A stretch of 12,925 nucleotides of DNA from J061 sp003695725 [NCBI: Candidatus Schekmanbacteria bacterium] (GTDB lineage: Bacteria > Schekmanbacteria > GWA2-38-11). A model generated the notes under the pieces. The model worked only from the letters and a program-made list of their open reading frames with translations. It was not told where the DNA came from and searched no databases. Location: contig RFHX01000117.1 in assembly GCA_003695725.1 (NCBI GenBank), positions 1 through 12,925 on the forward strand, written 5' to 3'. Below are positions 2,876 through 12,925 of this stretch, piece by piece; the stretch's first letter is position 1, and the number at the start of each line of letters is the position of its first letter. The translations under genes were made by a program, and so were the position numbers.

Positions 2876-2914
2876 CTGTTTTCCTTCTTTATTTTATATA
2901 GAGAAAGAAAACAG
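2876..2914. repeat. Imperfect inverted repeat upstream of UPF0182, possible operator or leader hairpin
   Basis: CTGTTTTC (2876-2883) is the exact reverse complement of GAAAACAG (2907-2914). After one mismatch (2884/2906) the pairing continues for five more positions, one of them a G-T pair, around an AT-rich loop at 2890-2900. Read on the minus strand, the loop contains TATATAAAAT, which offers a -10-like TATAAA for the UPF0182 gene, although no good -35 box lies at standard spacing. It could be an operator covering a promoter, or a hairpin in the 5' leader. The symmetry is directly seen and the function is inferred. Confidence 0.4.
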
Positions 2915-3081
2915 CATATAAGCAATAAATACAAGACTTTTATTCTGAAAAAAAGCTTTTTTTGAATTGATCAAAAAATGAAGAGATTGTCATATCGATG
3001 AATTTCCCAATTTTTCAAAGGGAGCCATTTTTCTGTAGTGAGAAGAGAGGAAATAAACATAAAATATCAAAGCATTTTCCC

Positions 3082-3110
3082 TTGACATATATTTTTTTTA
3101 TGTGTTAAAG
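3082..3110 (+). promoter_or_regulatory. Candidate sigma-70-type promoter for the F0 genes
   Basis: A perfect -35 box, TTGACA, lies at 3082-3087. At 16-17 bases of spacing only weak -10 candidates are present (GTTAAA at 3104-3109 or TTAAAG at 3105-3110), each matching TATAAT at three of six positions. A TG dinucleotide at 3101-3102 could help the first as an extended -10. It is about 95 bases upstream of the first F0-cluster start codon and is the best promoter candidate I can see on this strand. Confidence 0.4.
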
Positions 3111-3133
3111 ACAGCAAATTTATTTTACAGGAT

Positions 3134-3176
3134 AAAGCCTTTTTTTGAGCGATAACTATTAGATTTAAAAGGCTTT
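3134..3176 (+). repeat. Inverted repeat in the presumed F0 operon leader
   Basis: AAAGCCTTTT (3134-3143) is the exact reverse complement of AAAAGGCTTT (3167-3176), with a 23-base loop between them. It lies between the candidate promoter and the start codon at 3203. The base after the second arm leads into a pyrimidine-rich but interrupted run (TTCTTGT), so it is a poor intrinsic terminator. A leader hairpin affecting transcription or mRNA stability is possible. Confidence 0.35.
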
Positions 3177-3202
3177 TCTTGTAAAAAAAGAGTGTTCCTT
3201 TA

Positions 3203-3424
3203 ATGGGAAATGAAGACAACGAGAAAAGGAAAGAATACCGTCAATGGGGTCTTCTAAGCACTATAGGAATCACTCTGGTAGCATCAACATGCGTTGGACT
3301 TGCAATTGGCTATTATTTGGATAAATGGCTTGGAACTAAGCCTCTGTTTATAATTATTTGGACAATTTTAGGTGTTGCTGCGGGCTTTAAAGAGATGTTT
3401 TCAATAATAAAAAAGGGCGAATAG
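3203..3424 (+). CDS. AtpZ/AtpI-like small F0-associated membrane protein
   Basis: This 73-residue protein matches the small AtpZ/AtpI-type family encoded at the front of many ATP synthase operons. A short charged N-terminus (NEDNEKRKEYRQW) precedes helix one (about 18-36), a GYYLDKWLGTKPLF segment with the family's Gly-Tyr-X-Leu-Asp and Gly-Thr-X-Pro pattern (36-49), helix two (about 48-62) and a basic tail. Family members are thought to assist assembly or Mg supply of the ATP synthase rather than being structural subunits. The longer classical AtpI (about 120 residues) is not seen. Only a weak A/G-rich ribosome binding site precedes the ATG. It is the first gene of the F0 cluster, with six bases between its stop codon and atpB. 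Confidence 0.85.
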   Translation: MGNEDNEKRKEYRQWGLLSTIGITLVASTCVGLAIGYYLDKWLGTKPLFIIIWTILGVAAGFKEMFSIIKKGE

Positions 3425-3430
3425 AAAAAG

Positions 3431-4117
3431 ATGGAACATCCACCGGTATATTTATTTCTCTTGCTTGGAATACCTGAGCATATTCAGGAAGAGTACCGCT
3501 ATGTGATGCTTGCTGTGCTTGTCACTCTAATTCTGACCCTTATTTCTTTGTGGGCAAAAAGAAATTTGCAGGAAATCCCTACCGGCAAACAGAATTTTTT
3601 TGAATTTGTCGTAGGAGGAATACTCGACTTTATGGAAGAAATCATGGGACATGAAGCTAAAAGATTTCTTCCTCTTATTGGTACTCTCGGATTCTTCATT
3701 CTAACATCGAATCTATTGGGACTGATACCGGGTTTTGATTCGCCAACTGCGAATATTAACGCAACCGGTGGTTGTGCAATAGTTGTTTTTTTCACAACTC
3801 ATATTGTAGGTATAAAGAGGCACGGACTTAAATATGTAAAACAGTTTACTGGTCCTATTCCTTGGCTTGCGCCATTGATGATCCCTATTGAATTGATAAG
3901 CCATATTGTACGGCCTGTTTCACTGTCGATAAGATTATTTGGCAACATTTTTGGGGGTCATCTTGTGATTGGAAGTTTTTTGGGGCTTGTATCTATTCCA
4001 TTGATTTATCCTTTGCCTATGATGGCAATGGAGATATTTGTTGCTTTTGTGCAGACTTTGATTTTTATAGTGCTATCAATGATTTACATTTCTCTGGCTC
4101 TGTCAGAAGAACATTGA
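3431..4117 (+). CDS. atpB: F-type ATP synthase F0 subunit a
   Basis: Subunit a is the stator protein that forms the two ion half-channels next to the rotating c-ring in the cytoplasmic membrane. At 228 residues it is a usual length for bacteria other than enterics. The diagnostic segment is RPVSLSIRLFGNIFGGH (161-177), in which Arg168 corresponds to the essential Arg210 of E. coli that releases the ion from the c-subunit carboxylate. Other family signs are SNLLGLIPG (93-101), PIELISHIVRP (152-162), and a last helix with Glu201 and Gln208 in the MAMEIFVAFVQTLIF region. About five membrane helices are apparent. The ribosome binding site is poor, and translation may couple to the preceding gene, six bases away. 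Subunit b and the F1 genes do not follow, so the ATP synthase genes are split. Confidence 0.96.
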   Translation: MEHPPVYLFLLLGIPEHIQEEYRYVMLAVLVTLILTLISLWAKRNLQEIPTGKQNFFEFVVGGILDFMEEIMGHEAKRFLPLIGTLGFFILTSNLLGLIPGFDSPTANINATGGCAIVVFFTTHIVGIKRHGLKYVKQFTGPIPWLAPLMIPIELISHIVRPVSLSIRLFGNIFGGHLVIGSFLGLVSIPLIYPLPMMAMEIFVAFVQTLIFIVLSMIYISLALSEEH

Positions 4118-4161
4118 GATTGATATAAAACTTTGTGAGTTTAAAGAATTTTAATTTTTAC

Positions 4162-4171
4162 AAGGGGGTGA
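4162..4171 (+). promoter_or_regulatory. Strong extended ribosome binding site of atpE
   Basis: AAGGGGGTGA has one mismatch to the full anti-Shine-Dalgarno complement and lies six bases before the atpE ATG. It follows an A/T-rich 60-base spacer. Strong initiation fits the need for many c-subunits per ATP synthase. Confidence 0.7.
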
Positions 4172-4177
4172 AAACTG

Positions 4178-4504
4178 ATGAAAAAGGTTGCTTTGACAAT
4201 GCTTGTTTTAATGTTTGCGTGTTTGATTTTTGCGCCTACCGCAATGGCTGAAGAAGCAGCGGAGGGAGCTGTAAGCGGAGTCAATTTTACCTATGTGTGG
4301 GTTGCTTGCGCTTTTGGCATTGCTATTGCTGCATTTGGAGGCGCTCTTGGACAGGGACGCAGTGTAAGCTCTGCAATGGAAGGTATTGCAAGGAATCCTA
4401 ATGCTTCTGGTAAGATTCAGACTGCAATGATTATCGGTCTCGCTCTTATCGAGTCACTGGTAATTTATGCTCTTGTTGTTGTTCTGATTCTTCTCTTTAA
4501 ATAA
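4178..4504 (+). CDS. atpE: F-type ATP synthase F0 subunit c, with N-terminal signal-like extension
   Basis: Subunit c makes the rotor ring that carries ions through the membrane. The 108 residues exceed the usual 75-90 because of an N-terminal hydrophobic leader (MKK, then a Leu/Val/Phe core, ending TAMA at 21-24 before EE) that looks like a cleavable signal peptide. The mature part has helix one (about 38-60, Gly/Ala-rich), the polar loop with ARNP at 71-74, and helix two (about 82-107) bearing the ion-binding Glu92 in GLALIESLVIYAL. Gln59 (13 residues before Arg72), Glu92, Ser93 and Tyr97 fall at positions equivalent to Gln32, Glu65, Ser66 and Tyr70 of the Na-binding Ilyobacter c-ring. Leu94 replaces Thr67, so ion choice is uncertain. 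The gene follows atpB after 60 bases and has an unusually strong ribosome binding site. Confidence 0.96.
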   Translation: MKKVALTMLVLMFACLIFAPTAMAEEAAEGAVSGVNFTYVWVACAFGIAIAAFGGALGQGRSVSSAMEGIARNPNASGKIQTAMIIGLALIESLVIYALVVVLILLFK

Positions 4505-4537
4505 TGAAGCATTTAGGTTGGTAATATATAAGGAAGA

Positions 4538-4576
4538 TTTGGCGGGGGATAAAGGAACGATTTATCCTCCGCTAAA
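4538..4576. terminator. Strong stem-loop between atpE and nuoA (terminator or processing element)
   Basis: Bases 4538-4553 pair with 4561-4576 to give a 16-base-pair stem (two G-T pairs) around the seven-base loop GGAACGA. The GC-rich core is GGCGGGGG facing CCTCCGCT. No U-run follows on either strand (AATATTGTT downstream on plus), so it is not a classic intrinsic terminator. It may end or attenuate the F0 transcript, or protect its 3' end. The spacer from the stem to nuoA contains no convincing promoter, so read-through into nuo remains possible. Confidence 0.55.
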
Positions 4577-4633
4577 AATATTGTTAAAAGTAAGAAATAC
4601 ATAATCCTTTTAGTTTAACGCAGGAATATTCAG

Positions 4634-5035
4634 GTGGAAAAGGGACTTAATCCATACCTGCCAGTCATAATAATGCTTGTTGTTGCAGTCGGTTTTGCCG
4701 CTGTCAACATTATACTCTCTTATCTTGTAGGTAAAAGAAAAATTCATTCTGAAAAACTTTCACCCTATGAGTGTGGTATGCCCCCAATCGGTTCAGCAAG
4801 AATTCGTTTTCCTATAAAATTTTATCTTATTGGAATGCTCTTCATCATATTTGATATAGAAGCTGTATTTCTATATCCGTGGGCGGCAGTTTTGAAATCT
4901 ATCAAAAGTTATGGTGCTTTTGTTTTTTATGAAATGGTTGTTTTCATAATTATTCTTCTCTTAGGTCTTCTTTATTTGTGGAAAAGGAAAGCTCTTGAAT
5001 GGGAAAAAAGCAGTGAAGAATTTGGAGAAACTTGA
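4634..5035 (+). CDS. nuoA: NADH-quinone oxidoreductase subunit A
   Basis: NuoA (ND3-type) is a small membrane subunit at the junction of the membrane arm with the quinone module of complex I. The 133 residues hold three expected helices (about 9-32, 64-86 and 95-116). The signature loop SPYECGMPP (43-51) contains the Cys that in ND3 tracks the active/deactive state. RIRFPIKFYLIGMLFIIFD then leads to the conserved Asp-Ile-Glu (FDIEAVFLYPW) in helix two. The start is GTG at 4634 with AGGA eight bases upstream. It is the first gene of the nuo run, and its TGA stop overlaps the next ATG by one base. The usual next genes nuoB, nuoC and nuoD are absent. Confidence 0.95.
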   Translation: MEKGLNPYLPVIIMLVVAVGFAAVNIILSYLVGKRKIHSEKLSPYECGMPPIGSARIRFPIKFYLIGMLFIIFDIEAVFLYPWAAVLKSIKSYGAFVFYEMVVFIIILLLGLLYLWKRKALEWEKSSEEFGET

Positions 5036-5505
5036 TGGCTGCTGAAAATGGTGAGGTTGATAAAAAAATAGACGAGCTTCTCAAAAAATATCCCCGAAAG
5101 GATGCCGCACTTTTGCCTTTACTTCATCTTTTTCAGGAAAGGGAAGGATGGATTAGCAAAGAATCTATGGAAAAAGCGGCGCAAATATTGGAAATTCCTA
5201 CAAGCCGTGTTAGAGGCGTTGCTACATTCTATACAATGTATAACAAAGAAAAGGTTGGCAGATATTTCATTCAAGTCTGTACGAATATTGCCTGCCATCT
5301 TCTTGAAGCACGCAAAATTGTTGAACATATAGAAAAGAAGCTTGGGATCAAGGTAGGTGAAACAACACCTGACGGAAAATTTTCTTTGATTACGGTTGAA
5401 TGTCTTGGTTCTTGCGGCACAGCACCTATGATGCAAATAAACAATGATTATTATGAAAATCTTACAATTGAGAAAGTTGATAGCATTTTGGACGGCTTGA
5501 AATAG
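5035..5505 (+). CDS. nuoE: NADH-quinone oxidoreductase subunit E (2Fe-2S, thioredoxin-like)
   Basis: NuoE is the 24-kDa-type subunit that carries cluster N1a beside the FMN subunit NuoF. The 156 residues comprise an N-terminal helical domain (about 8-70, with RVRGVATFYTMY at 58-69, a family signature) and a thioredoxin-like 2Fe-2S domain. The four ligands are visible as Cys82 and Cys87 (C-x4-C) and Cys123 and Cys127 (C-x3-C, in ECLGSCGTAP). The start is taken as ATG 5035, with GGAG eight bases upstream and a one-base TGATG overlap with the nuoA stop. A TTG one codon earlier is less likely. The neighbours are odd: no nuoF or nuoG follows, so its normal partners must be encoded elsewhere. It could also serve another NuoE-type enzyme such as a hydrogenase or formate dehydrogenase diaphorase, although its place in the nuo run argues for complex I. 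Confidence 0.95.
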   Translation: MAAENGEVDKKIDELLKKYPRKDAALLPLLHLFQEREGWISKESMEKAAQILEIPTSRVRGVATFYTMYNKEKVGRYFIQVCTNIACHLLEARKIVEHIEKKLGIKVGETTPDGKFSLITVECLGSCGTAPMMQINNDYYENLTIEKVDSILDGLK

Positions 5506-5529
5506 ATTTGAGACAGAAAAAAAGGGAAA

Positions 5530-6594
5530 ATGGGAGGAACGAACATCTCGAGTTTATTGACAAATACTCTTTTTATAAAAGTTGTTGAGATCCTCTTCAT
5601 CTTTAGCGCAACGATGGGCACCGTTGCTTATCTTACTTGGGTGGAAAGAAGAGTTTCTGCATTTATGCAAAAACGTTTGGGTCCCAACAGAGTTGGCTTT
5701 GCTGGACTTCTTCAACCCCTTGCAGATGGCCTTAAATTCATTATGAAGGAGGATATCATTCCGCTTCATGTGAATAAGTTTTTTTATGTTTTAGCGCCGA
5801 TGATTTCCATAATTCCAGCACTTATAACCTTTGCAGTGATACCTTTTGGAGCGCCAACGACATTCAATGGATTGTTGGATAAACCGATAGAGCTTCAGAT
5901 TACAGAGCTCAATGTTGGGATTTTATACATAATCGCTGTTGCTTCTCTTGGAGTTTATGGAATTGTCCTCGGGGGCTGGGCTTCTAATAACAAATATTCT
6001 CTTATGGGCGGTCTTCGCTCATCTGCACAGATGATTAGTTACGAGCTTGCAATGGGACTTGCTCTTGTGGGTGTAATTATGACAGCCGGCTCACTAAATC
6101 TTTCAGATATAGTAATCAAACAGGGAAAATACTGGTTTATTTTTCCACAGATTCTTGGCTTTGTAGTTTTCATTATTTCAAGTTTTGCAGAAACAAACAG
6201 ACTTCCTTTCGACTTGCCGGAAGCAGAATCAGAGCTTGTTGCCGGTTATCATACAGAATACAGCAGTATGAAGTTTGCAATGTTTTTTATGGCAGAGTAT
6301 GCAAATATGATTACAGCATCAGCACTGATTGTAACTCTCTATTTCGGCGGATGGCAGGGATTGCCTATAGGCGGCTGGTTGAATCTGCCAATCATAGATA
6401 AACTCTGGTTTATGCCATTGATATGGTTTGCTATCAAAGTGGGAGTTGTCCTTTTCTTCTTTGTTTGGGTTAGATGGACATTCCCAAGATTCAGATATGA
6501 CCAGCTAATGGCTTTTGGATGGAAGGTATTGGTGCCTATTGCACTGCTCAATATACTTATAACAGGGACATTAATATACTGGAATATCATATAA
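5530..6594 (+). CDS. nuoH: NADH-quinone oxidoreductase subunit H
   Basis: NuoH (ND1-type) is the membrane subunit that forms much of the quinone chamber and links the peripheral arm to the proton channels. At 354 residues it is near the usual 320-350, with about eight helices. Landmarks are WVERRVSAFMQKRLGPNRVG (37-56), GLLQPLADGLKFIMKED (59-75), RSSAQMISYELAMG (163-176), and the acidic loop FAETNRLPFDLPEAESELVAG (219-239) continuing HTEYSSMKFAMFFMAEY (241-257), which faces the quinone site. RWTFPRFRYDQLM (315-327) lies near the C-terminus. The ATG is preceded by AAAGGG only three bases away, and a GGGAGGAA stretch lies inside the first codons, so a slightly later start cannot be excluded. 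It follows nuoE by 24 bases. nuoI, which usually follows, is missing. Confidence 0.97.
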   Translation: MGGTNISSLLTNTLFIKVVEILFIFSATMGTVAYLTWVERRVSAFMQKRLGPNRVGFAGLLQPLADGLKFIMKEDIIPLHVNKFFYVLAPMISIIPALITFAVIPFGAPTTFNGLLDKPIELQITELNVGILYIIAVASLGVYGIVLGGWASNNKYSLMGGLRSSAQMISYELAMGLALVGVIMTAGSLNLSDIVIKQGKYWFIFPQILGFVVFIISSFAETNRLPFDLPEAESELVAGYHTEYSSMKFAMFFMAEYANMITASALIVTLYFGGWQGLPIGGWLNLPIIDKLWFMPLIWFAIKVGVVLFFFVWVRWTFPRFRYDQLMAFGWKVLVPIALLNILITGTLIYWNII

Positions 6595-7115
6595 TGATGG
6601 AAACAGTTGGCTTTTATTTTTGCGCATCACTTGCAGTGGTTTCAGCAGTTTTCATGGTGCTGAAAAAAAATCCGGTGGCATCGGTTTTTTCTCTTATTAT
6701 CACCTTTATTTCATTAGCCGGACTTTATGTGACTCTTTATGCGCATTTTTTGGCAATAATTCAAATACTTGTATATGCAGGCGCAATAATGGTTTTGTTT
6801 TTGTTCGTAGTTATGCTTCTTGATCTTAGAGAGGATGAGATTTTTTTCAAAGTGCAGAAGGGCGTTAAAATAGGAGGAATCTTTCTTGTAGGCATACTTC
6901 TTGCAGAAGTTTGGTTTGTAGCTTCATCCATCTCGAAGAACATCCTTTCTAAGGGCAATTTTACTCCAGATGCCATTGCCCGTGAAGGGGGCAATACAAT
7001 GCTTCTTGGCAAATTGCTTTTTACGAAGTATTTGTTGCCCTTTGAACTTACTTCGGTACTTCTTCTTGTTGCTATTATTGGCGCTGTGCTGATGTCAAGG
7101 AGGACAGGACGATGA
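6594..7115 (+). CDS. nuoJ: NADH-quinone oxidoreductase subunit J
   Basis: NuoJ (ND6-type) is a five-helix membrane subunit whose third helix undergoes the pi-bulge change coupling quinone chemistry to proton transfer. The 173 residues match the family length. The [20 protein letters not shown] segment (24-43) is followed by the family signature [20 protein letters not shown] (52-71), then VVMLLDL, a polar loop (about 108-145) and a final helix ending in VLMSRRTGR. The frame is open further upstream into nuoH. The start is set at ATG 6594, the first of two adjacent ATGs, sharing one base with the nuoH stop (TAATG) and suggesting coupled translation. ATG 6597 is equally possible. Confidence 0.95.
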
Positions 7116-7414
7116 TAGGACTTAACCATTATTTGGTGCTTTCAGCAATTCTTTTCTCTATTGGCGCCATTGGAGTTTTTGTTAGAAGGAGCGCGCTCAT
7201 AATTTTTATGTGTATTGAACTTATGCTAAATTCTGTGAATTTGACCTTTGTTGCTTTTTCGAAATATCTAAACAACATCGATGGACAGCTTTTTGTTTTT
7301 TTTGTCCTTACCGTAGCGGCGGCTGAAGTGGTTGTGGGGCTTGCAATCATTGTCCTGATTTTTAGAAGAAGAACCACTGTCAATGTTGATGAAATTAGTG
7401 AAATGAAAGGATAA
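7112..7414 (+). CDS. nuoK: NADH-quinone oxidoreductase subunit K
   Basis: NuoK (ND4L-type) is a three-helix membrane subunit forming part of the fourth proton path. It has exactly 100 residues, as in E. coli. The conserved channel glutamates are visible at the same numbers, Glu36 (in [14 protein letters not shown]) and Glu72 (in [14 protein letters not shown]). [13 protein letters not shown] (18-30) is the usual first loop. The start overlaps the nuoJ stop by four bases (ATGA) and is preceded by a strong AAGGAGG eight bases upstream. Confidence 0.97.
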
Positions 7415-7424
7415 ATGGTAGGCG

Positions 7425-9353
7425 ATGCTTGAATATATTTGGTTGATTCCCTGTTTACCGCTCATTGGCTTTGCCATAAATGGACTTATTGGCAAATATA
7501 TCGGTAAAAAGCTTGTAAGTTTGGTAGCCTGCGGCTCGGTGGGCATATCATTTCTAATTTCTCTTCTCTCTTTTTCAAATCTTATTGCAATGCCTGCTGA
7601 AGAGCGGCTTTTTGAGAAAACCCTGTACACATGGATTGGAAGCGGTACATTCAGAGCAGAATTGACATTTCAATTAGATCCTCTCTCAGCCATTATGATT
7701 CTTGTCGTCACAGGAGTGGGATTTCTCATTCATATCTACTCGATTGGATATATGCATGATGATGAAGGGTATGCACGCTATTTCACTTATCTCAATCTTT
7801 TTACCTTTTCAATGCTTCTATTGGTTTTGGGAGGCAATTTCCTCCTGATGTTCGTAGGGTGGGAAGCTGTAGGGCTTTGCTCATACCTTCTCATAGGATT
7901 TTGGTATAAGAAAAAGAGCGCAACTGATGCCGGTAAAAAGGCATTTATAGTCAATAGAGTAGGGGATTTCGGATTCATACTTGGAATAATGATGATATTT
8001 TTCACCTTCCACTCTGTCGATTTTCAAGAGGTATTTCATCAAGCAGAAGCCAATTTCCCTGAAGGAAGCAACACGATAGTCTGGATTGCGATGCTTCTTT
8101 TTATTGGCGCCACGGGGAAATCAGCGCAAATCCCACTTTATGTTTGGCTTCCCGATGCTATGGAGGGCCCTACTCCTGTCAGCGCATTGATTCATGCCGC
8201 AACTATGGTTACAGCTGGCGTCTATATGGTGGCAAGATGCAGTACCTTTTATATAATCGCTCCTGAAGCTATGCTGACAGTGGCTATTATTGGAGCTGTT
8301 ACAGCAATCTTTGCGGCTTCAATTGGGCTTGTGCAGAATGATATAAAGAAAGTTCTTGCATACTCCACTGTAAGTCAGCTTGGATATATGTTTCTTGCTT
8401 GCGGAGTTGGGGCATTTACAGCGGCGATATTTCATCTTATGACACACGCTTTCTTCAAAGCTCTCCTTTTTCTTGGCTCAGGCAGTGTCATTCACGCAAT
8501 GGGCGGCGAACAGGATATAAGAAAGATGGGCGCTCTTAGAAAGAAGATGCCGATTACTTTTTATACTTTTTTGCTTGCAACTCTTGCTATTGCGGGATTT
8601 CCCGGTTTTTCAGGATTTTTCAGTAAGGATGAAATTCTCTGGAAAACTTTTTCTTCTCCCTATGGGAATACTGCGCTTTGGGTTGTTGGCGCAGTGGCTG
8701 CAGGTTTTACTTCATTTTATATGTTTCGCCTTGTCTTTCTAACCTTTTGCGGTGAATCAAGAGTTGAACCTCATACTGAAGAACATCTTCATGAATCTCC
8801 ACCTTCAATGACCATACCTCTCACAATACTTGGTGTCCTTTCAGTGATTGGTGGATATATCGGCATACCTCATATTCTTGGCGGTCATAACAGGATAGAG
8901 GCATTTCTTGAACCTGTTTTCAAATTTGCTGCAGAAAGAACAAATGAATTGCAAGCAGAAGGAAGTGAAAGTTTGGAATTAACTTTGATGGTCTTATCAG
9001 TTTTAATAGCTTTGATTGGTTTGGCTGTTGCCTACTACTTTTATCTTAAAAATAAGAAGGTACCTGAGAAGCTGGCTGAGAATTTTTCACCTATATATAA
9101 ACTTCTTCTAAACAAATACTATGTTGATGAAATTTATGATGCATTGATTGTAAATCCAATAAAGAAGGGCGCTGTATTTCTTTGGGAATTTTTTGATGAC
9201 AAGATTGTTGATGGCATTGTCAATGGCACAGCCGAGTTTTTTGAAGATGGCGGTTTAAGTTTGAGAAAACTGCAGAGCGGAAAAGTTCAGGCATATTTGG
9301 TTTCAATATTGGTTGGGGTCGTATTGTTTGTTGGATATTTTCTTATTTATTAG
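7425..9353 (+). CDS. nuoL: NADH-quinone oxidoreductase subunit L
   Basis: NuoL (ND5-type) is the distal antiporter-like pump subunit with the long lateral helix along the membrane arm. The 642 residues fit the family. The order is an N-terminal domain with LDPLSAIM (84-91), FVGWEAVGLCSYLLIGFW (143-160) with channel Glu147, and KKAFIVNRVGDFGF (171-184). GKSAQIPLYVWLPDAMEGPT (231-250) carries Lys232, HAATMVTAGVYM (257-268) contains conserved His, QNDIKKVLAYSTVSQLGYM follows at 304-322, and HAFFKALLFLGSGSVIHA (341-358) carries Lys345. Lys401 lies in GFFSKDEI. These lysines and glutamate line the proton path in the E. coli and Thermus structures. The C-terminal part (about 500-642) has the NKYYVDEIYDALIV lateral-helix region and a last anchor helix. 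The start lies ten bases after nuoK, with a GGTAGG ribosome site close to the ATG. Confidence 0.97.
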   Translation: MLEYIWLIPCLPLIGFAINGLIGKYIGKKLVSLVACGSVGISFLISLLSFSNLIAMPAEERLFEKTLYTWIGSGTFRAELTFQLDPLSAIMILVVTGVGFLIHIYSIGYMHDDEGYARYFTYLNLFTFSMLLLVLGGNFLLMFVGWEAVGLCSYLLIGFWYKKKSATDAGKKAFIVNRVGDFGFILGIMMIFFTFHSVDFQEVFHQAEANFPEGSNTIVWIAMLLFIGATGKSAQIPLYVWLPDAMEGPTPVSALIHAATMVTAGVYMVARCSTFYIIAPEAMLTVAIIGAVTAIFAASIGLVQNDIKKVLAYSTVSQLGYMFLACGVGAFTAAIFHLMTHAFFKALLFLGSGSVIHAMGGEQDIRKMGALRKKMPITFYTFLLATLAIAGFPGFSGFFSKDEILWKTFSSPYGNTALWVVGAVAAGFTSFYMFRLVFLTFCGESRVEPHTEEHLHESPPSMTIPLTILGVLSVIGGYIGIPHILGGHNRIEAFLEPVFKFAAERTNELQAEGSESLELTLMVLSVLIALIGLAVAYYFYLKNKKVPEKLAENFSPIYKLLLNKYYVDEIYDALIVNPIKKGAVFLWEFFDDKIVDGIVNGTAEFFEDGGLSLRKLQSGKVQAYLVSILVGVVLFVGYFLIY

Positions 9354-9364
9354 TGTAAGGAGAG

Positions 9365-9370
9365 AAGGAG
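9365..9370 (+). promoter_or_regulatory. Ribosome binding site that fixes a TTG start for nuoM
   Basis: AAGGAG lies six bases upstream of TTG 9377. The frame has no nearby ATG, and the encoded [15 protein letters not shown] matches the usual NuoM first helix, so TTG is the likely start. Confidence 0.7.
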
Positions 9371-9376
9371 TATAAA

Positions 9377-10957
9377 TTGATTTCGGTTATTACATTTTTC
9401 CCGCTTGTTGGAGTCCTTTTTATTCTCCTTACGGGGAGAAACAATAAAGGGTTGATAAGGACCTTTGCCTTTGCAACAACTCTTATTGATTTTTTCTTCT
9501 CATTGAGGATTTACAACGGCTTTAACAGTGAGACAGCAAATTTTCAGTTTATTGAAAATATACCATGGATAACGAGTTTGGGAATCAACTATTCTGTGGG
9601 AATCGATGGCATTAGTCTTCTCCTTGTTATGCTTACGACTTTTATCACTCCAATTGTTATTCTTGCTTCTTGGAGCGCAATTGAAGATAAGGTCAAGGAA
9701 TATATGATTGCAATGCTTCTTCTTGAAGTGGGAATGATTGGGGTTTTTGTTGCAACTGACTTATTTCTCTTTTATGTCTTTTGGGAGTTGATGTTGATTC
9801 CTATGTATCTTCTCATAGGTGTTTGGGGTGGTCCTCGTAGAATTTATGCCGCTGTAAAATTTGTTCTCTATACTATGGTGGGCAGTGTCTTGATGCTTCT
9901 TGCAATTCTTTACCTTTATTTTATGAATTATCAGCAGACAGGAGAATACAGCTTTAGTCTTTTCGATTTTTATAAACTCAATATTCCCATTGAAATTCAG
10001 CCATGGCTCTTTCTTGCTTTTGCATTGGCTTTTGCAATCAAAGTTCCAATGTTTCCCTTTCATACATGGCTTCCAGATGCTCATGTCGAAGCGCCAACAG
10101 GCGGAAGCGTTATTCTTGCAGGGGTCCTTTTGAAAATGGGGACATATGGTTTTTTGAGATTTTGCCTCCCTCTTTTCCCTAATGCTTCATTTAAATTTAT
10201 GCCCTATTTTTGTGTACTTGCAATCATCGGAATAATTTACGGAGCCCTTGTATCTATGGTGCAGAAGGATATCAAAAAGCTTGTTGCCTATTCAAGTGTA
10301 AGTCATCTCGGCTTTGTAATGCTTGGAATTTTTGCCTTCAATCAACAGGGGATGGAAGGGAGCATTATCCAAATGATAAATCATGGACTAAGCACAGGAG
10401 CGCTCTTTCTTCTCGTAGGTATGGTTTATGAAAGAAGACATACTAGAATGATTTCTGAGTTTGGAGGAATCGCAAAAACAGTACCTATTTTTGCAACTTT
10501 TTTTATGATTGTAACCTTGTCATCAATCGGTCTTCCGGGTTTAAACGGTTTTATAGGAGAATTTCTCATACTTGTTGGAACTTTTCAGGCAAGCCGTATT
10601 TATGCGGCTTTTGCGGCTACAGGAATTATCCTTGCTGCTGTTTATATGTTGTGGATGGTGCAGAGGTTTCTTTTTGGGGAAATCACAAAGGAGGAAAACA
10701 GAAATCTCAAAGATGTCAATTTAAGAGAAGCCGCTGTGATTATTCCTGTTATTTTCTTCATAGTTATGATTGGTGTTTATCCACAACCATTTCTTGGAAA
10801 GATGCATACATCGGTGCAAGGGTTGTTGGACAAGGTAAATGTGCAGTATCAATTTGTGGAGAATGAGAAACCGTCGATGAAAAAAAGGGTAATCAAGACG
10901 GTTAATAGCGGTGAAAAGTTGAAGAGTGATGAAAATGAAAAAGAGCAGATGCTCTAA
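9377..10957 (+). CDS. nuoM: NADH-quinone oxidoreductase subunit M
   Basis: NuoM (ND4-type) is the middle antiporter-like proton pump. Of its 526 residues, the first 480 or so cover the fourteen-helix core. Visible functional residues are Glu137 in [18 protein letters not shown] (135-152), Lys222 in [20 protein letters not shown] (219-238), Lys253 in [15 protein letters not shown] (247-261), and Glu395 in GLNGFIGEF (388-396), equivalent to E. coli Glu144, Lys234, Lys265 and Glu407. [20 protein letters not shown] (296-315) is the conserved discontinuous-helix region. The C-terminus has an extra hydrophilic, Lys/Glu-rich tail of about 40 residues (487-526), which is not part of the pump fold. 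The start is TTG with a good ribosome site, 23 bases after nuoL. Confidence 0.97.
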
Positions 10958-10978
10958 AATTTAAGGAGTTTTTTATAA

Positions 10979-12433
10979 ATGCCGGATTTGACACAGATTA
11001 ACATCAATCTTCAGGCAGTAATGCCTGAAATCTCTCTCTGCATTGGCGCTCTTGCGGTGCTTCTGCTTAATGCACTCTTTCCGAAAATCAGCAGGCAACT
11101 GCTTGTTTTTTTATCTATACTAACACTTCTTGTCTCTTTTCGATTGACAATGAATCTATGGGGAAACAGCATAACAGCATTTAGCGGAATGTTTATAATT
11201 GACCGCTTTTCTTTTTATGCCAAGATGCTCTTTTTTATAATAGCTTTTCTGATTATCGTTGTCTCCTCGACCTATTTGCGCGATTTCGAATTTGGCGTTG
11301 GAGAATATTTGTCGCTTATACTTTTTTCAACAGCTGGTATGTCTTTCATTGCAAGCGGTGCCGACCTTCTCATTATTTTTCTTTCAATAGAGATAATGTC
11401 CATCGCCTTCTATGTCCTTGCAGGGTTCGAGAGAGGTAATTTTCTTTCAAATGAAGCTTCGCTTAAATATTTTTTAGTAGGAGCATTTTCTTCTGTTTTT
11501 CTTTTATATGGTATTGCACTTCTTTATGGTTTTGCAGGCACATCAAACCTTCGTGGAATTGCTTCAGCAATATCCACATCGTCTTCACTGCCGGTTATAG
11601 TTTTTATTGGTACTTCGCTTCTTTTTGTAGGTTTCCTCTTTAAAATAGCTGCAGTCCCCTTTCATATGTGGACTCCGGATGTTTATCAGGGTGCGCCGAC
11701 GCCGATTACCGCTTTTATGGCGACAGCAGGGAAGGTTGCGGCTTTTGTTGCTTTAGTCAGAGTAATAGAAACATCATTTCTGCCATTCATAGATAATATG
11801 TCAGAAGTGTTGTGGATTTTATGTGCAATTACAATGACTTTGGGCAACCTTGTTGCTCTTGCACAAACCAACATTAAAAGAATGCTTGCCTATTCAAGCA
11901 TTGCTCATGCCGGCTATCTGCTCATTGCTTTTGTTGCAATGAATGAACTTTTTATTCCCTCAGTGCTCTTTTATCTATTTGCATATGCTCTGATGAATAT
12001 TGGAGCATTTTCAGTCGTCGTTTTTTTGAGCAGCAAGGAAAAGGAAGCCGTTAATATATCTGCATATGCCGGAATAGGTTATAAGTATCCTCTTTTAGGT
12101 GTTTGTATGACAATCTTTATGATTTCTCTTGCAGGAATTCCTCCTACAGCAGGTTTTATGGGAAAATTCTACATCTTCTCTTCTGCAATTAAATCAGGAT
12201 TTGTCAATTTGGCAATAATTGGAGTTATCAATAGTGTAATTTCTGTTTATTATTACTTCAGAATAATAGTTTATATGTATATGAAAGAGCCGGAAGAAAA
12301 CTGGATATATGGAAGATTTTCTCCTCAACTTCTTGCCGTAATTTTTTCCTGCGCCGCAGTGATAATGATTGTTGGAATTTTTCCTGATTTTGTAATCCGC
12401 CTCGCCAAGATTTCCAAGATTGCAGTCTGGTAA
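10979..12433 (+). CDS. nuoN: NADH-quinone oxidoreductase subunit N
   Basis: NuoN (ND2-type) is the antiporter-like pump nearest the quinone module. Its 484 residues are a normal length with about fourteen helices. Key residues are Glu138 in LSIEIMSIAFYVLAGFER (135-152), Lys222 in GFLFKIAAVPFHMWTPDVYQ (218-237), Lys252 in MATAGKVAAFVAL (247-259), and Lys396 in TAGFMGKFYIF (390-400), equivalent to E. coli Glu133, Lys217, Lys247 and Lys395. AQTNIKRMLAYSSIAHAGYL (295-314) is the conserved broken-helix region. ATG 10979 has AAGGAG ten bases upstream and lies 21 bases after nuoM. It is the last gene of the run, and no clear intrinsic terminator follows within the next hundred bases. Confidence 0.97.
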   Translation: MPDLTQININLQAVMPEISLCIGALAVLLLNALFPKISRQLLVFLSILTLLVSFRLTMNLWGNSITAFSGMFIIDRFSFYAKMLFFIIAFLIIVVSSTYLRDFEFGVGEYLSLILFSTAGMSFIASGADLLIIFLSIEIMSIAFYVLAGFERGNFLSNEASLKYFLVGAFSSVFLLYGIALLYGFAGTSNLRGIASAISTSSSLPVIVFIGTSLLFVGFLFKIAAVPFHMWTPDVYQGAPTPITAFMATAGKVAAFVALVRVIETSFLPFIDNMSEVLWILCAITMTLGNLVALAQTNIKRMLAYSSIAHAGYLLIAFVAMNELFIPSVLFYLFAYALMNIGAFSVVVFLSSKEKEAVNISAYAGIGYKYPLLGVCMTIFMISLAGIPPTAGFMGKFYIFSSAIKSGFVNLAIIGVINSVISVYYYFRIIVYMYMKEPEENWIYGRFSPQLLAVIFSCAAVIMIVGIFPDFVIRLAKISKIAVW

Positions 12434-12589
12434 TTTTCGTTCATTTTGCTACAGCTTCGGTAAAAGTCTCTCATTGGTTGGTACTACGCTTCGCCTTTCC
12501 TCACTACAAATTACAAACCCTTTTGCTTAATTCCTCATTGCGTGCGCGCCTTGGGTTCAAATCTTTTCCCTCAAGCAATCAGATTTTTG

Positions 12590-12646
12590 TTTTTCACCCT
12601 CCATTAAAAAGTTCAGGTGAGAGAAGGAGAGACAGAGGGTTAAAAA
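12590..12646. repeat. 57-base unit bounded by imperfect 12-base inverted repeats
   Basis: TTTTTCACCCTC (12590-12601) pairs with GAGGGTTAAAAA (12635-12646) with one mismatch (12595/12641), enclosing a purine-rich 33-base interior. The CACCCTC/GAGGG pattern is reminiscent of dispersed intergenic repeats seen in many bacterial genomes. Copy number cannot be judged from one window. Confidence 0.4.
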
Positions 12647-12661
12647 TTTATCGATATTGTA

Positions 12662-12684
12662 GGAACGACCCACTGCGGTCGTCC
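12662..12684. repeat. Short palindromic unit with GACC/GGTC arms, REP/MITE-like
   Basis: GGAACGACC (12662-12670) and GGTCGTCC (12677-12684) form an eight-pair GC-rich stem with one bulged A around the six-base loop CACTGC. Compact CGACC-loop-GGTCG palindromes of this kind are often dispersed intergenic repeats. The structure is seen directly; membership of a repeat family is inferred. Confidence 0.45.
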
Positions 12685-12710
12685 ATTTATTACAAGGTTC
12701 AAAAACTTCT

Positions 12711-12738
12711 TGATTTTAGGAAAATCAGGTCTCTTTTT
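12711..12738. terminator. Weak candidate bidirectional terminator between convergent genes
   Basis: TGATTTT (12711-12717) pairs exactly with AAAATCA (12721-12727) across the three-base loop AGG. On the plus strand a T-run follows at 12734-12738 after a seven-base gap. On the minus strand AGAAGTTTTTG follows. The stem is AT-rich, so the strength is doubtful, but it lies ten bases beyond the stop of the leftward gene. Confidence 0.35.
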
Positions 12739-12925
12739 ATTTCCCAGTGGTGTTTAAAAGAATTGATAAGTTAGCACTTCCTGATGATATTGTTATAATA
12801 TCCAAGTAGTCGTCATTATTAAGATCTGCAACTACTACTTCTTCCGGCCATCTTCCCGCTGAAAACTCAACGGGATCTAAAAAATCAAAATCACCTTTTC
12901 CTGCTAATATGAATATGGTAAATTT
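12737..12925 (-). CDS. C-terminal end of an FG-GAP/VCBS-repeat-like protein (partial)
   Basis: The minus-strand frame is open from the window edge to TAA at 12737-12739 and encodes 62 residues. It contains FSAGRWPEEVVVADLNNDDY followed by LDIITISSGSANLSILLN. The Asp-Leu-Asn-Asn-Asp-Asp-Tyr-Leu-Asp-Ile string is the Asp-rich calcium-binding loop typical of FG-GAP/VCBS repeats, which build beta-propeller blades in exported proteins, and the hydrophobic LSILLN strand closes the blade. A second, partial repeat start (LAGKGDFDF) precedes it. The N-terminus, signal peptide and total number of blades are outside the window. It converges on nuoN and is functionally unrelated as far as can be seen. 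The substrate or ligand is unknown. Confidence 0.75.
   Translation of the reverse strand, partial: KFTIFILAGKGDFDFLDPVEFSAGRWPEEVVVADLNNDDYLDIITISSGSANLSILLNTTGK

Follow-up and report, generated by a model that had tools for sequence, protein, structure and literature searches.

In the genome of the Candidatus Schekmanbacteria bacterium J061 sp003695725 (assembly GCA_003695725.1; 2.77 Mb in 374 contigs), the genes of one complex I appear to be distributed over two loci: the nuo cluster at positions 4634-12433 of contig RFHX01000117.1 (C117), encoding the subunits A, E, H, J, K, L, M and N, and a cluster on contig C18, which carries the exact complement of this set. We refer to the entire contig C117, 12,925 nucleotides in length, as the window. 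Together, the two clusters very probably encode a single, ordinary 14-subunit proton-pumping NADH:quinone oxidoreductase (NADH, reduced nicotinamide adenine dinucleotide). We favour one normal NADH-oxidising complex I because the gene contents are complementary, the two clusters are left to pair by elimination, the split is conserved in all four genomes sampled from the phylum, and the motifs of the predicted proteins are intact.

Two complementary gene clusters

Eight open reading frames (ORFs) on the + strand of the window match the NCBIfam families NuoA, E, H, J, K, L, M and N (Table 1). Families were assigned by NCBIfam models with curated cut-offs; NuoE, H, K, L, M and N each exceed at least one of these, and NuoA and NuoJ remain below the cut-offs shown, yet all of their listed matches are to subunits A and J, respectively. 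For nuoJ, the start was set at 6594 (overlap ATGATG), in preference to 6519, where the mechanically predicted, longer ORF begins. A preliminary description, made from the sequence alone, had reported these genes in canonical order, with overlaps of 1-4 bases or gaps of at most 24 bases, and the family matches as well as the measured spacings (A/E -4, E/H 24, H/J -1, J/K -4, K/L 10, L/M 23 and M/N 21 bases) agree with it. The absence of nuoB, C, D, F, G and I also held: searched by tblastn with the B, C, D, CD, F, G, I and methyltransferase (see below) proteins encoded in this genome, the window gave no match better than E 0.19, and no remnants were detectable at the A/E, E/H and H/J junctions, where none had been seen before, or elsewhere in the window. 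All six missing genes do encode peripheral-arm subunits, as had been stated. NuoE is peripheral too and its gene is the only one of this kind remaining in the window; the cut therefore does not run exactly between membrane arm and peripheral arm.

Two explanations had been offered for the missing genes, namely a catalytic arm encoded elsewhere or a membrane arm working with a different electron-input module. The proposed search of the remaining genome settles the question by locating the catalytic arm, so that a different module is not needed: all six genes lie in one cluster on C18 (6,910 bases, locus L004), which starts inside nuoB, reads B-CD-F-G-I with spacings of -14, -17, +16 and +30 bases, and continues with a methyltransferase gene. 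The nuoC and nuoD genes are fused here into one 559-residue frame.

A further contig, C104, carries a complete 11-gene complex I operon (A-B-C-D-H-I-J-K-L-M-N) without E, F and G, and since this operon is complete in itself, no subunit must be borrowed for it. Genome-wide, two matches were found to nuoB (PF01058; on C104 and C18) and two to nuoH, and NuoD or CD matches lie on two contigs only. As one nuoB, one nuoH and one NuoD each belong to the C104 operon, the window and C18 are left to pair. All 14 subunits of a complex I are thus encoded in the genome by genes of which the C104 complex needs none (A, E, H and J-N in the window; B, CD, F, G and I on C18). The window proteins share 37-58% identity with their C104 counterparts in seven pairs (42.6% for NuoA) and are therefore not encoded by recent copies of the C104 genes. 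Nor does the window represent an 11-subunit complex I-like enzyme, which lacks E, F and G: it has E and is without B, C, D and I, whereas C104 fits this type. A canonical nuo cluster in a single operon was likewise not what we found, the genes lying on two contigs in all four genomes of the phylum.

The predicted proteins carry the motifs of a working enzyme, whose positions were taken from a motif scan and whose functional meaning (clusters, flavin mononucleotide (FMN) site, quinone site and proton channels) we assume. Iron-sulphur (Fe-S) ligand motifs are present for N1a in NuoE (CTNIAC and CLGSC), N3 in NuoF, N1b, N5, N4 and an N7-like set in NuoG, and N6a and N6b in NuoI; NuoB has the four N2 cysteines, the FMN-site motif GRGGAGFP is present, and so are the quinone-site His and Tyr regions of NuoD. 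Regular expressions detected the antiporter Lys motifs of the transmembrane helices (TM) 7, 8 and 12 in NuoL, NuoM and NuoN of the window and the TM5 Glu of NuoN; they missed the TM5 Glu of NuoL and NuoM, which was seen by eye in the translations. In the NuoN of C104, the TM8 motif was not matched by regular expressions. NuoM and NuoCD can be aligned almost end to end with solved chains of complex I. In the proposed enzyme, the window cluster would supply the proton-pumping membrane arm together with NuoE, and the C18 cluster would contribute the FMN site, the 4Fe-4S chain and the quinone-reducing module.

It should also be noted that some points speak against this assignment. The NuoG of C18 scores 425.8 bits, below the NCBIfam equivalog cut-off of 470; C18 begins within nuoB, and the region upstream of it is unseen in this genome; and the assembly of both gene sets into one active enzyme is predicted from the genes. 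Scores below the cut-off, as for NuoA, NuoJ and NuoG, can be expected of a divergent lineage.

The use of another input module by the window's membrane arm, either the quinone module of C104 or a set of NuoE/F/G-like proteins on contig C167, would be conceivable as both modules are present in the genome and NuoE/F/G-like proteins could in principle be shared between complexes. We consider this highly improbable: the C104 operon is complete with its own A, H and J-N, and the C18 cluster would be left without a partner. Beyond C18 and the window, matches to PF01512 and PF01257 revealed NuoF/E-like genes on C167 only, and a search with the NuoF of C18 added one weak, partial match on C255 (26% over residues 241-426). 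On C167 (L155:1545-5567), a 2-oxoacid:ferredoxin oxidoreductase beta-like (pyruvate-synthase-beta-like) gene is directly followed by HoxE-, NuoF- and HoxU/NuoG-like genes, names which in all but one case rest on partial or sub-cut-off matches. This neighbourhood suggests that the set is better read as a putative NAD module of a 2-oxoacid oxidoreductase, and because of it, C167 was rejected as the main donor.

Conservation within the phylum

Synteny was compared, as the preliminary description had recommended, in four genomes of the phylum (G000-G003), which represent two families of one order. The order atpB-atpE-nuoA-E-H-J-K-L-M-N is found in all four, and so is B-CD-F-G-I on a different contig (the contig of G003 ends inside nuoI, as C18 starts inside nuoB). 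G001 is the best assembled of the four; its membrane cluster is found 140 kb into a contig of 613,962 bases, and its B-CD-F-G-I cluster on one of 46,458 bases. Since all four genomes show the same split, once on a 614-kb contig, a fresh deletion can be dismissed as well as an assembly collapse, and the earlier view of an established arrangement, not a misjoined contig, is thereby substantiated. That the missing genes were lost from the window by assembly collapse or a binning error might be suspected in an assembly of 374 contigs; the identical gene order in four genomes, including the long contig, and the location of the missing genes elsewhere in the genome reduce this to a negligible possibility, and assembly collapse was ruled out on the grounds of the shared order. 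Across the phylum as sampled, the split is therefore fixed and of long standing.

The complete 11-gene operon is present in three of the four genomes (G000, G001 and G003); the corresponding contig of G002 holds only A, B, C and part of D. On this 10.9-kb contig (L153, G002:C3), A-B-C-D(start) occupies positions 1-2216 and a stop-containing fragment of the NuoD C-terminus positions 10611-10870, an arrangement which may be a remnant or else an oddity of binning.

Gene order in other genomes

The order of nuo genes was tabulated in 130 loci, a sample selected by similarity and hence biased. NuoI is missing between H and J at 30 of the 80 informative junctions, and H-J adjacency is therefore common. 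Of 89 genes found next after nuoA, 72 are nuoB and only five are nuoE, these five coming from the four phylum members and an Acidobacteria metagenome-assembled genome (MAG; L084). Partial splits were observed in several other genomes: E-F-H-J-K-L-M-N and B-CD-G-I in G250, where no nuoA was seen; A-H-J-K-L-M-N and CD-E-F-G-I in G130, with nuoB matches on a third contig; a B-CD-E-F-G-I cluster in G261; A-C-E-F-G-H-J-K-L-M-N and B-D-I in G051; A-C-E-F-H-J (up to the contig end) and B-D-I-G in G034, the latter preceded by a MidA gene at a distance of about 1.4 kb; and atpB-atpE-A-C-D-E-F-H-J-K-L-M-N in G220, which has B-I and G-B-I elsewhere (L191, L203, L204). The latter genome also contains an H-J-K-L-M-N set of the 11-gene type beside its atpB-atpE-nuo cluster. 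In all six genomes the detached genes belong to the peripheral arm. Counter-cases to such a restriction are L035 and L179 (G096), in which the displaced genes are L and M. A single detached nuoB occurs in G211 and G076. In an Armatimonadota MAG (L067, JAUWAU010000017.1), one contig reads A-H-J-K-L-M-N-B-CD-E-F-G-I (nuoA being cut by the edge of the stretch), that is, membrane genes first and peripheral genes after them, with canonical order within each part.

Origin: one operon or two

For the origin of the split, we give about even chances to a duplication of an ancestral full nuo operon, whose copies would have lost complementary genes and later become separated; canonical order would then have survived in both copies. 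Both halves are indeed complementary and each is in canonical order. The arrangement in L067 is as expected from an operon duplication with complementary loss, and partial splits preserving the order are also found in G250, G130, G261 and G051.

Several observations are at odds with such a history. Pseudogene remnants, which would favour complementary loss, were not found in the window by tblastn; the detached clusters B-D-I-G of G034 and G-B-I of G220 are not in canonical order; and the membrane genes and the B/CD/G/I genes place the phylum beside different operons. All trees come from quick searches with branch support by SH-aLRT (the Shimodaira-Hasegawa-like approximate likelihood ratio test) only, the concatenated ones under LG+G4. 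In the membrane-gene tree (H, J, K, L, M, N; 73 rows), the phylum stands in a 28-row group (support 87), apart from the fused-CD-rich operons (the set tested under this name also includes rows with separate C and D frames, G201 and G131, and G262, where a stop interrupts them). In the B/CD/G/I tree (68 rows), it falls into a 24-row group (100) that is rich in fused-CD operons, with G250 as its sister (100). When the phylum was held together with ten fused-CD-rich rows, the membrane genes rejected this (log-likelihood lower by 698, p 0.0004), and when it was held with G250 and five neighbours from the membrane tree, B/CD/G/I rejected that (lower by 444, p 2e-56). Given these opposed rejections, the halves may be of mixed origin.

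Such a hybrid complex I, with the halves stemming from two nuo operons (a native one and a second that was acquired and had CD fused) and the same present-day function after complementary loss, would account for the discordant trees, and the NuoF tree points in the same direction: the F of the phylum, located with B-CD-G-I, lies in a 20-row fused-CD-rich group (support 89), the F of G250, located in the membrane cluster, is apart from it with L013 (95) and G023/G166 (86), and holding the latter F with the fused-CD-rich group is borderline (p 0.040). We nevertheless regard a hybrid as rather unlikely and keep it only as a rival explanation, because a grouping of the phylum with G250 and G060 fits both data sets (p 0.32 for the membrane genes and 0.099 for B, CD, G and I). 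The phylum together with G250 is rejected neither for NuoF (p 0.359) nor for the membrane genes (p 0.586). Moreover, a 44-row B/CD/G/I tree unites 14 fused-CD-rich and related rows in a clade (support 98) that excludes the phylum; the phylum is therefore their sister and not nested among them, and many other operons are also placed differently in the two trees, so that systematic error is likely part of the signal. The NuoE tree, with eight of 42 inner branches starred, is too weak to be drawn on.

A stepwise history, in which genes left the operon one at a time and were re-gathered without duplication and complementary loss, is somewhat more plausible than a hybrid and still less so than duplication. 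Partial detachment is seen elsewhere, as described above for nuoB (G211, G076), B-I and G-B-I (G220), B-D-I (G051) and B-D-I-G (G034), and the non-canonical order of B-D-I-G and G-B-I speaks for piecemeal moves in the lineages of these two clusters. Random re-gathering of five units would, by simple arithmetic, yield the canonical B-CD-F-G-I in one of 120 cases, and the sorted arrangement of L067 on one contig also speaks against piecemeal relocation. Duplication with complementary loss remains our preferred reading. Taken with the sorted Armatimonadota operon and the partial splits, the split in this phylum points to a way in which nuo operons may separate while their order persists.

The methyltransferase gene beside nuoI

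The last gene of C18, starting 15 bases past nuoI, encodes a 379-residue protein of the MidA/NDUFAF7 type (PF02636, 128.7 bits, cut-off 23.3), for which no NCBIfam family was matched at E 1e-10. It follows nuoI in G000, G001 and G002, where the G002 copy contains a single in-frame stop; G003 yielded no PF02636 match, its genome being 70% complete and its contig ending before the expected place. A second, marginal PF02636 match (23 to 23.4 bits) is located on contig C85 of the window's genome.

Mammalian NDUFAF7 adds a symmetric dimethylation to Arg-85 of the NuoD homologue NDUFS2, and the arginine modification is present in Paracoccus and missing in E. coli, according to the parts of the two reports consulted (PMC3829151, PMC3750175). 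The C18 gene resembles this system in clustering with the gene of its predicted substrate NuoD; the difference is that methylation is known in mammals and Paracoccus, whereas here it is predicted from the genes. The target arginine (Arg-85 in the bovine protein, in an HRG motif) is present in the GYLHR of both the C18 CD and the C104 D protein, and the enzyme may modify this conserved arginine near cluster N2 during assembly.

PF02636 matches above the cut-off occur in 20 of 145 genomes, and in four of these carriers (G000, G001, G002 and G034) they lie beside nuo genes; the relevant contig of G034, C32, matches the Tectomicrobia record L019. A further linked copy is located upstream of nuoA in the Sericytochromatia MAG L086. 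Such linkage in three separate lineages is suggestive and hints at a possible role of the methyltransferase for NuoD. To be set against this, the gene is apart from nuoD in 11 of the 20 carriers (G011, G017, G023, G024, G072, G073, G108, G111, G123, G133 and G137), "apart" meaning on another contig than the listed NuoD or CD matches or, in G073, 390 kb away, and with five carriers (G045, G050, G054, G084 and G138) left out of this comparison. If the linked MidA methylates NuoD, a mitochondrial assembly factor would be tied to bacterial complex I by gene neighbourhood. A more far-reaching proposal, which we consider doubtful, would combine both aspects: two complete nuo operons, perhaps from separate lineages, would each have lost what the other kept, so that the halves of complex I became sorted, a bacterial parallel to the mitochondrial division between membrane-arm and soluble-arm genes, and the soluble-arm operon would carry its own NDUFAF7-like NuoD arginine methyltransferase as an assembly checkpoint encoded in a bacterial operon.

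Further features of the window

The complete order on the + strand of the 12.9-kb window is atpB-atpE-nuoA-E-H-J-K-L-M-N (Table 1). The pair atpB-atpE directly 5' of nuoA, common to all four phylum genomes, also occurs outside the phylum in G220 (L191, 7556-8709). A consensus scan found six terminator-like sites in 2900-5100, where 1.7 were expected, and the stem-loop between atpE and nuoA is possibly a terminator or attenuator that would set the dosage of the c subunit. Promoter-like sites numbered seven in 2900-5100 (6.4 expected) and four in 12300-12925 (1.5 expected), and no conclusion on promoters was therefore drawn. Diverging from the atp-nuo cluster, a gene for a UPF0182 membrane protein (PF03699, 770 of 770 profile positions) is located at 148-2934 on the - strand.

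Table 1 Features of the window and PF02636 genes at or near nuo loci, with positions within the window or the locus named
Feature	Locus	Position	Strand	Remarks
atpB (F0 subunit a)	window	3431..4117	+	TIGR01131 147.3 bits, cut-off 102.6; with atpE directly upstream of the nuo genes
atpE (F0 subunit c)	window	4178..4504	+	TIGR01260 55.4 bits, cut-off 43.95; directly upstream of nuoA
Stem-loop, 16 pairs, terminator- or attenuator-like	window	4538..4576	+	Consensus scan; between atpE and nuoA
nuoA (membrane arm)	window	4634..5035	+	Best NCBIfam NuoA model E 1.2e-31, 109.6 bits, below cut-off 155
nuoE (NADH module, 2Fe-2S N1a)	window	5032..5505	+	TIGR01958 188.7 bits, cut-off 142.4
nuoH (membrane arm, quinone-site interface)	window	5530..6594	+	NF004741 375.8 bits, cut-off 305
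nuoJ (membrane arm)	window	6594..7115	+	Best NCBIfam NuoJ model E 1.1e-40, 139.3 bits, below cut-off 154
nuoK (membrane arm)	window	7112..7414	+	NuoK model 133.7 bits, cut-off 57
nuoL (antiporter-like subunit)	window	7425..9353	+	TIGR01974 833.7 bits, cut-off 407.5; TM7, TM8, TM12 Lys motifs
nuoM (antiporter-like subunit)	window	9377..10957	+	TIGR01972 660.9 bits, cut-off 263.8; aligned to solved NuoM chains
nuoN (antiporter-like subunit)	window	10979..12433	+	TIGR01770 448 bits, cut-off 332.6
PF02636 gene	L004 (C18)	5501-6640		
PF02636 gene	L148	7202-8308		
PF02636 gene	L150	4937-6058		
PF02636 gene	L205	5958-7184		
PF02636 gene	L086	5692-7029		

Comparison with known systems

With the canonical 14-gene nuo operon of NDH-1 (E. 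coli, Thermus), the enzyme described here shares all subunits, their relative order within each half, and the Fe-S, FMN and quinone-site motifs; it differs in being encoded at two loci and in its short NuoG (520 amino acids). The fusion of C and D on C18 is a likeness to E. coli. The 11-subunit complex I is present in the same genome on C104 and is not the window's enzyme.

No description of a partition into A-E-H-J-K-L-M-N and B-CD-F-G-I was found in the open-licence literature, judged mostly by title and the start of the abstract, nor is it among the arrangements described in the consulted part of a 2025 survey (PMC12361115), according to which most clades contain both split and single-cluster complex I and a fused subunit D occurs in 1,374 species. 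As far as the excerpts consulted go, Melioribacter roseus has an 11-gene ABCDHIJKLMN cluster as well as ABCDEFJKLMN and GHI in two loci (PMC3534657); an 11-gene cluster with a further set spread over two loci is thus shared with the genome studied here, whereas G, H and I are apart there and B, CD, F, G and I here. Similarly, the part of the report consulted on Sulfurospirillum multivorans gives one complex encoded in two operons, nuoGHIJKLMN and nuoABCDEF (PMC11238625), which are separated by a single cut between F and G, in contrast to the interleaved partition of the present case.

The enzyme itself is ordinary and split nuo sets are already known; what appears to be new is the particular partition and its occurrence throughout the sampled phylum, and its interest lies in this and in the methyltransferase gene beside the peripheral-arm genes. 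It provides a natural example, spanning the phylum, of a complex I whose membrane half and electron-transfer half are encoded apart and could therefore be regulated independently.

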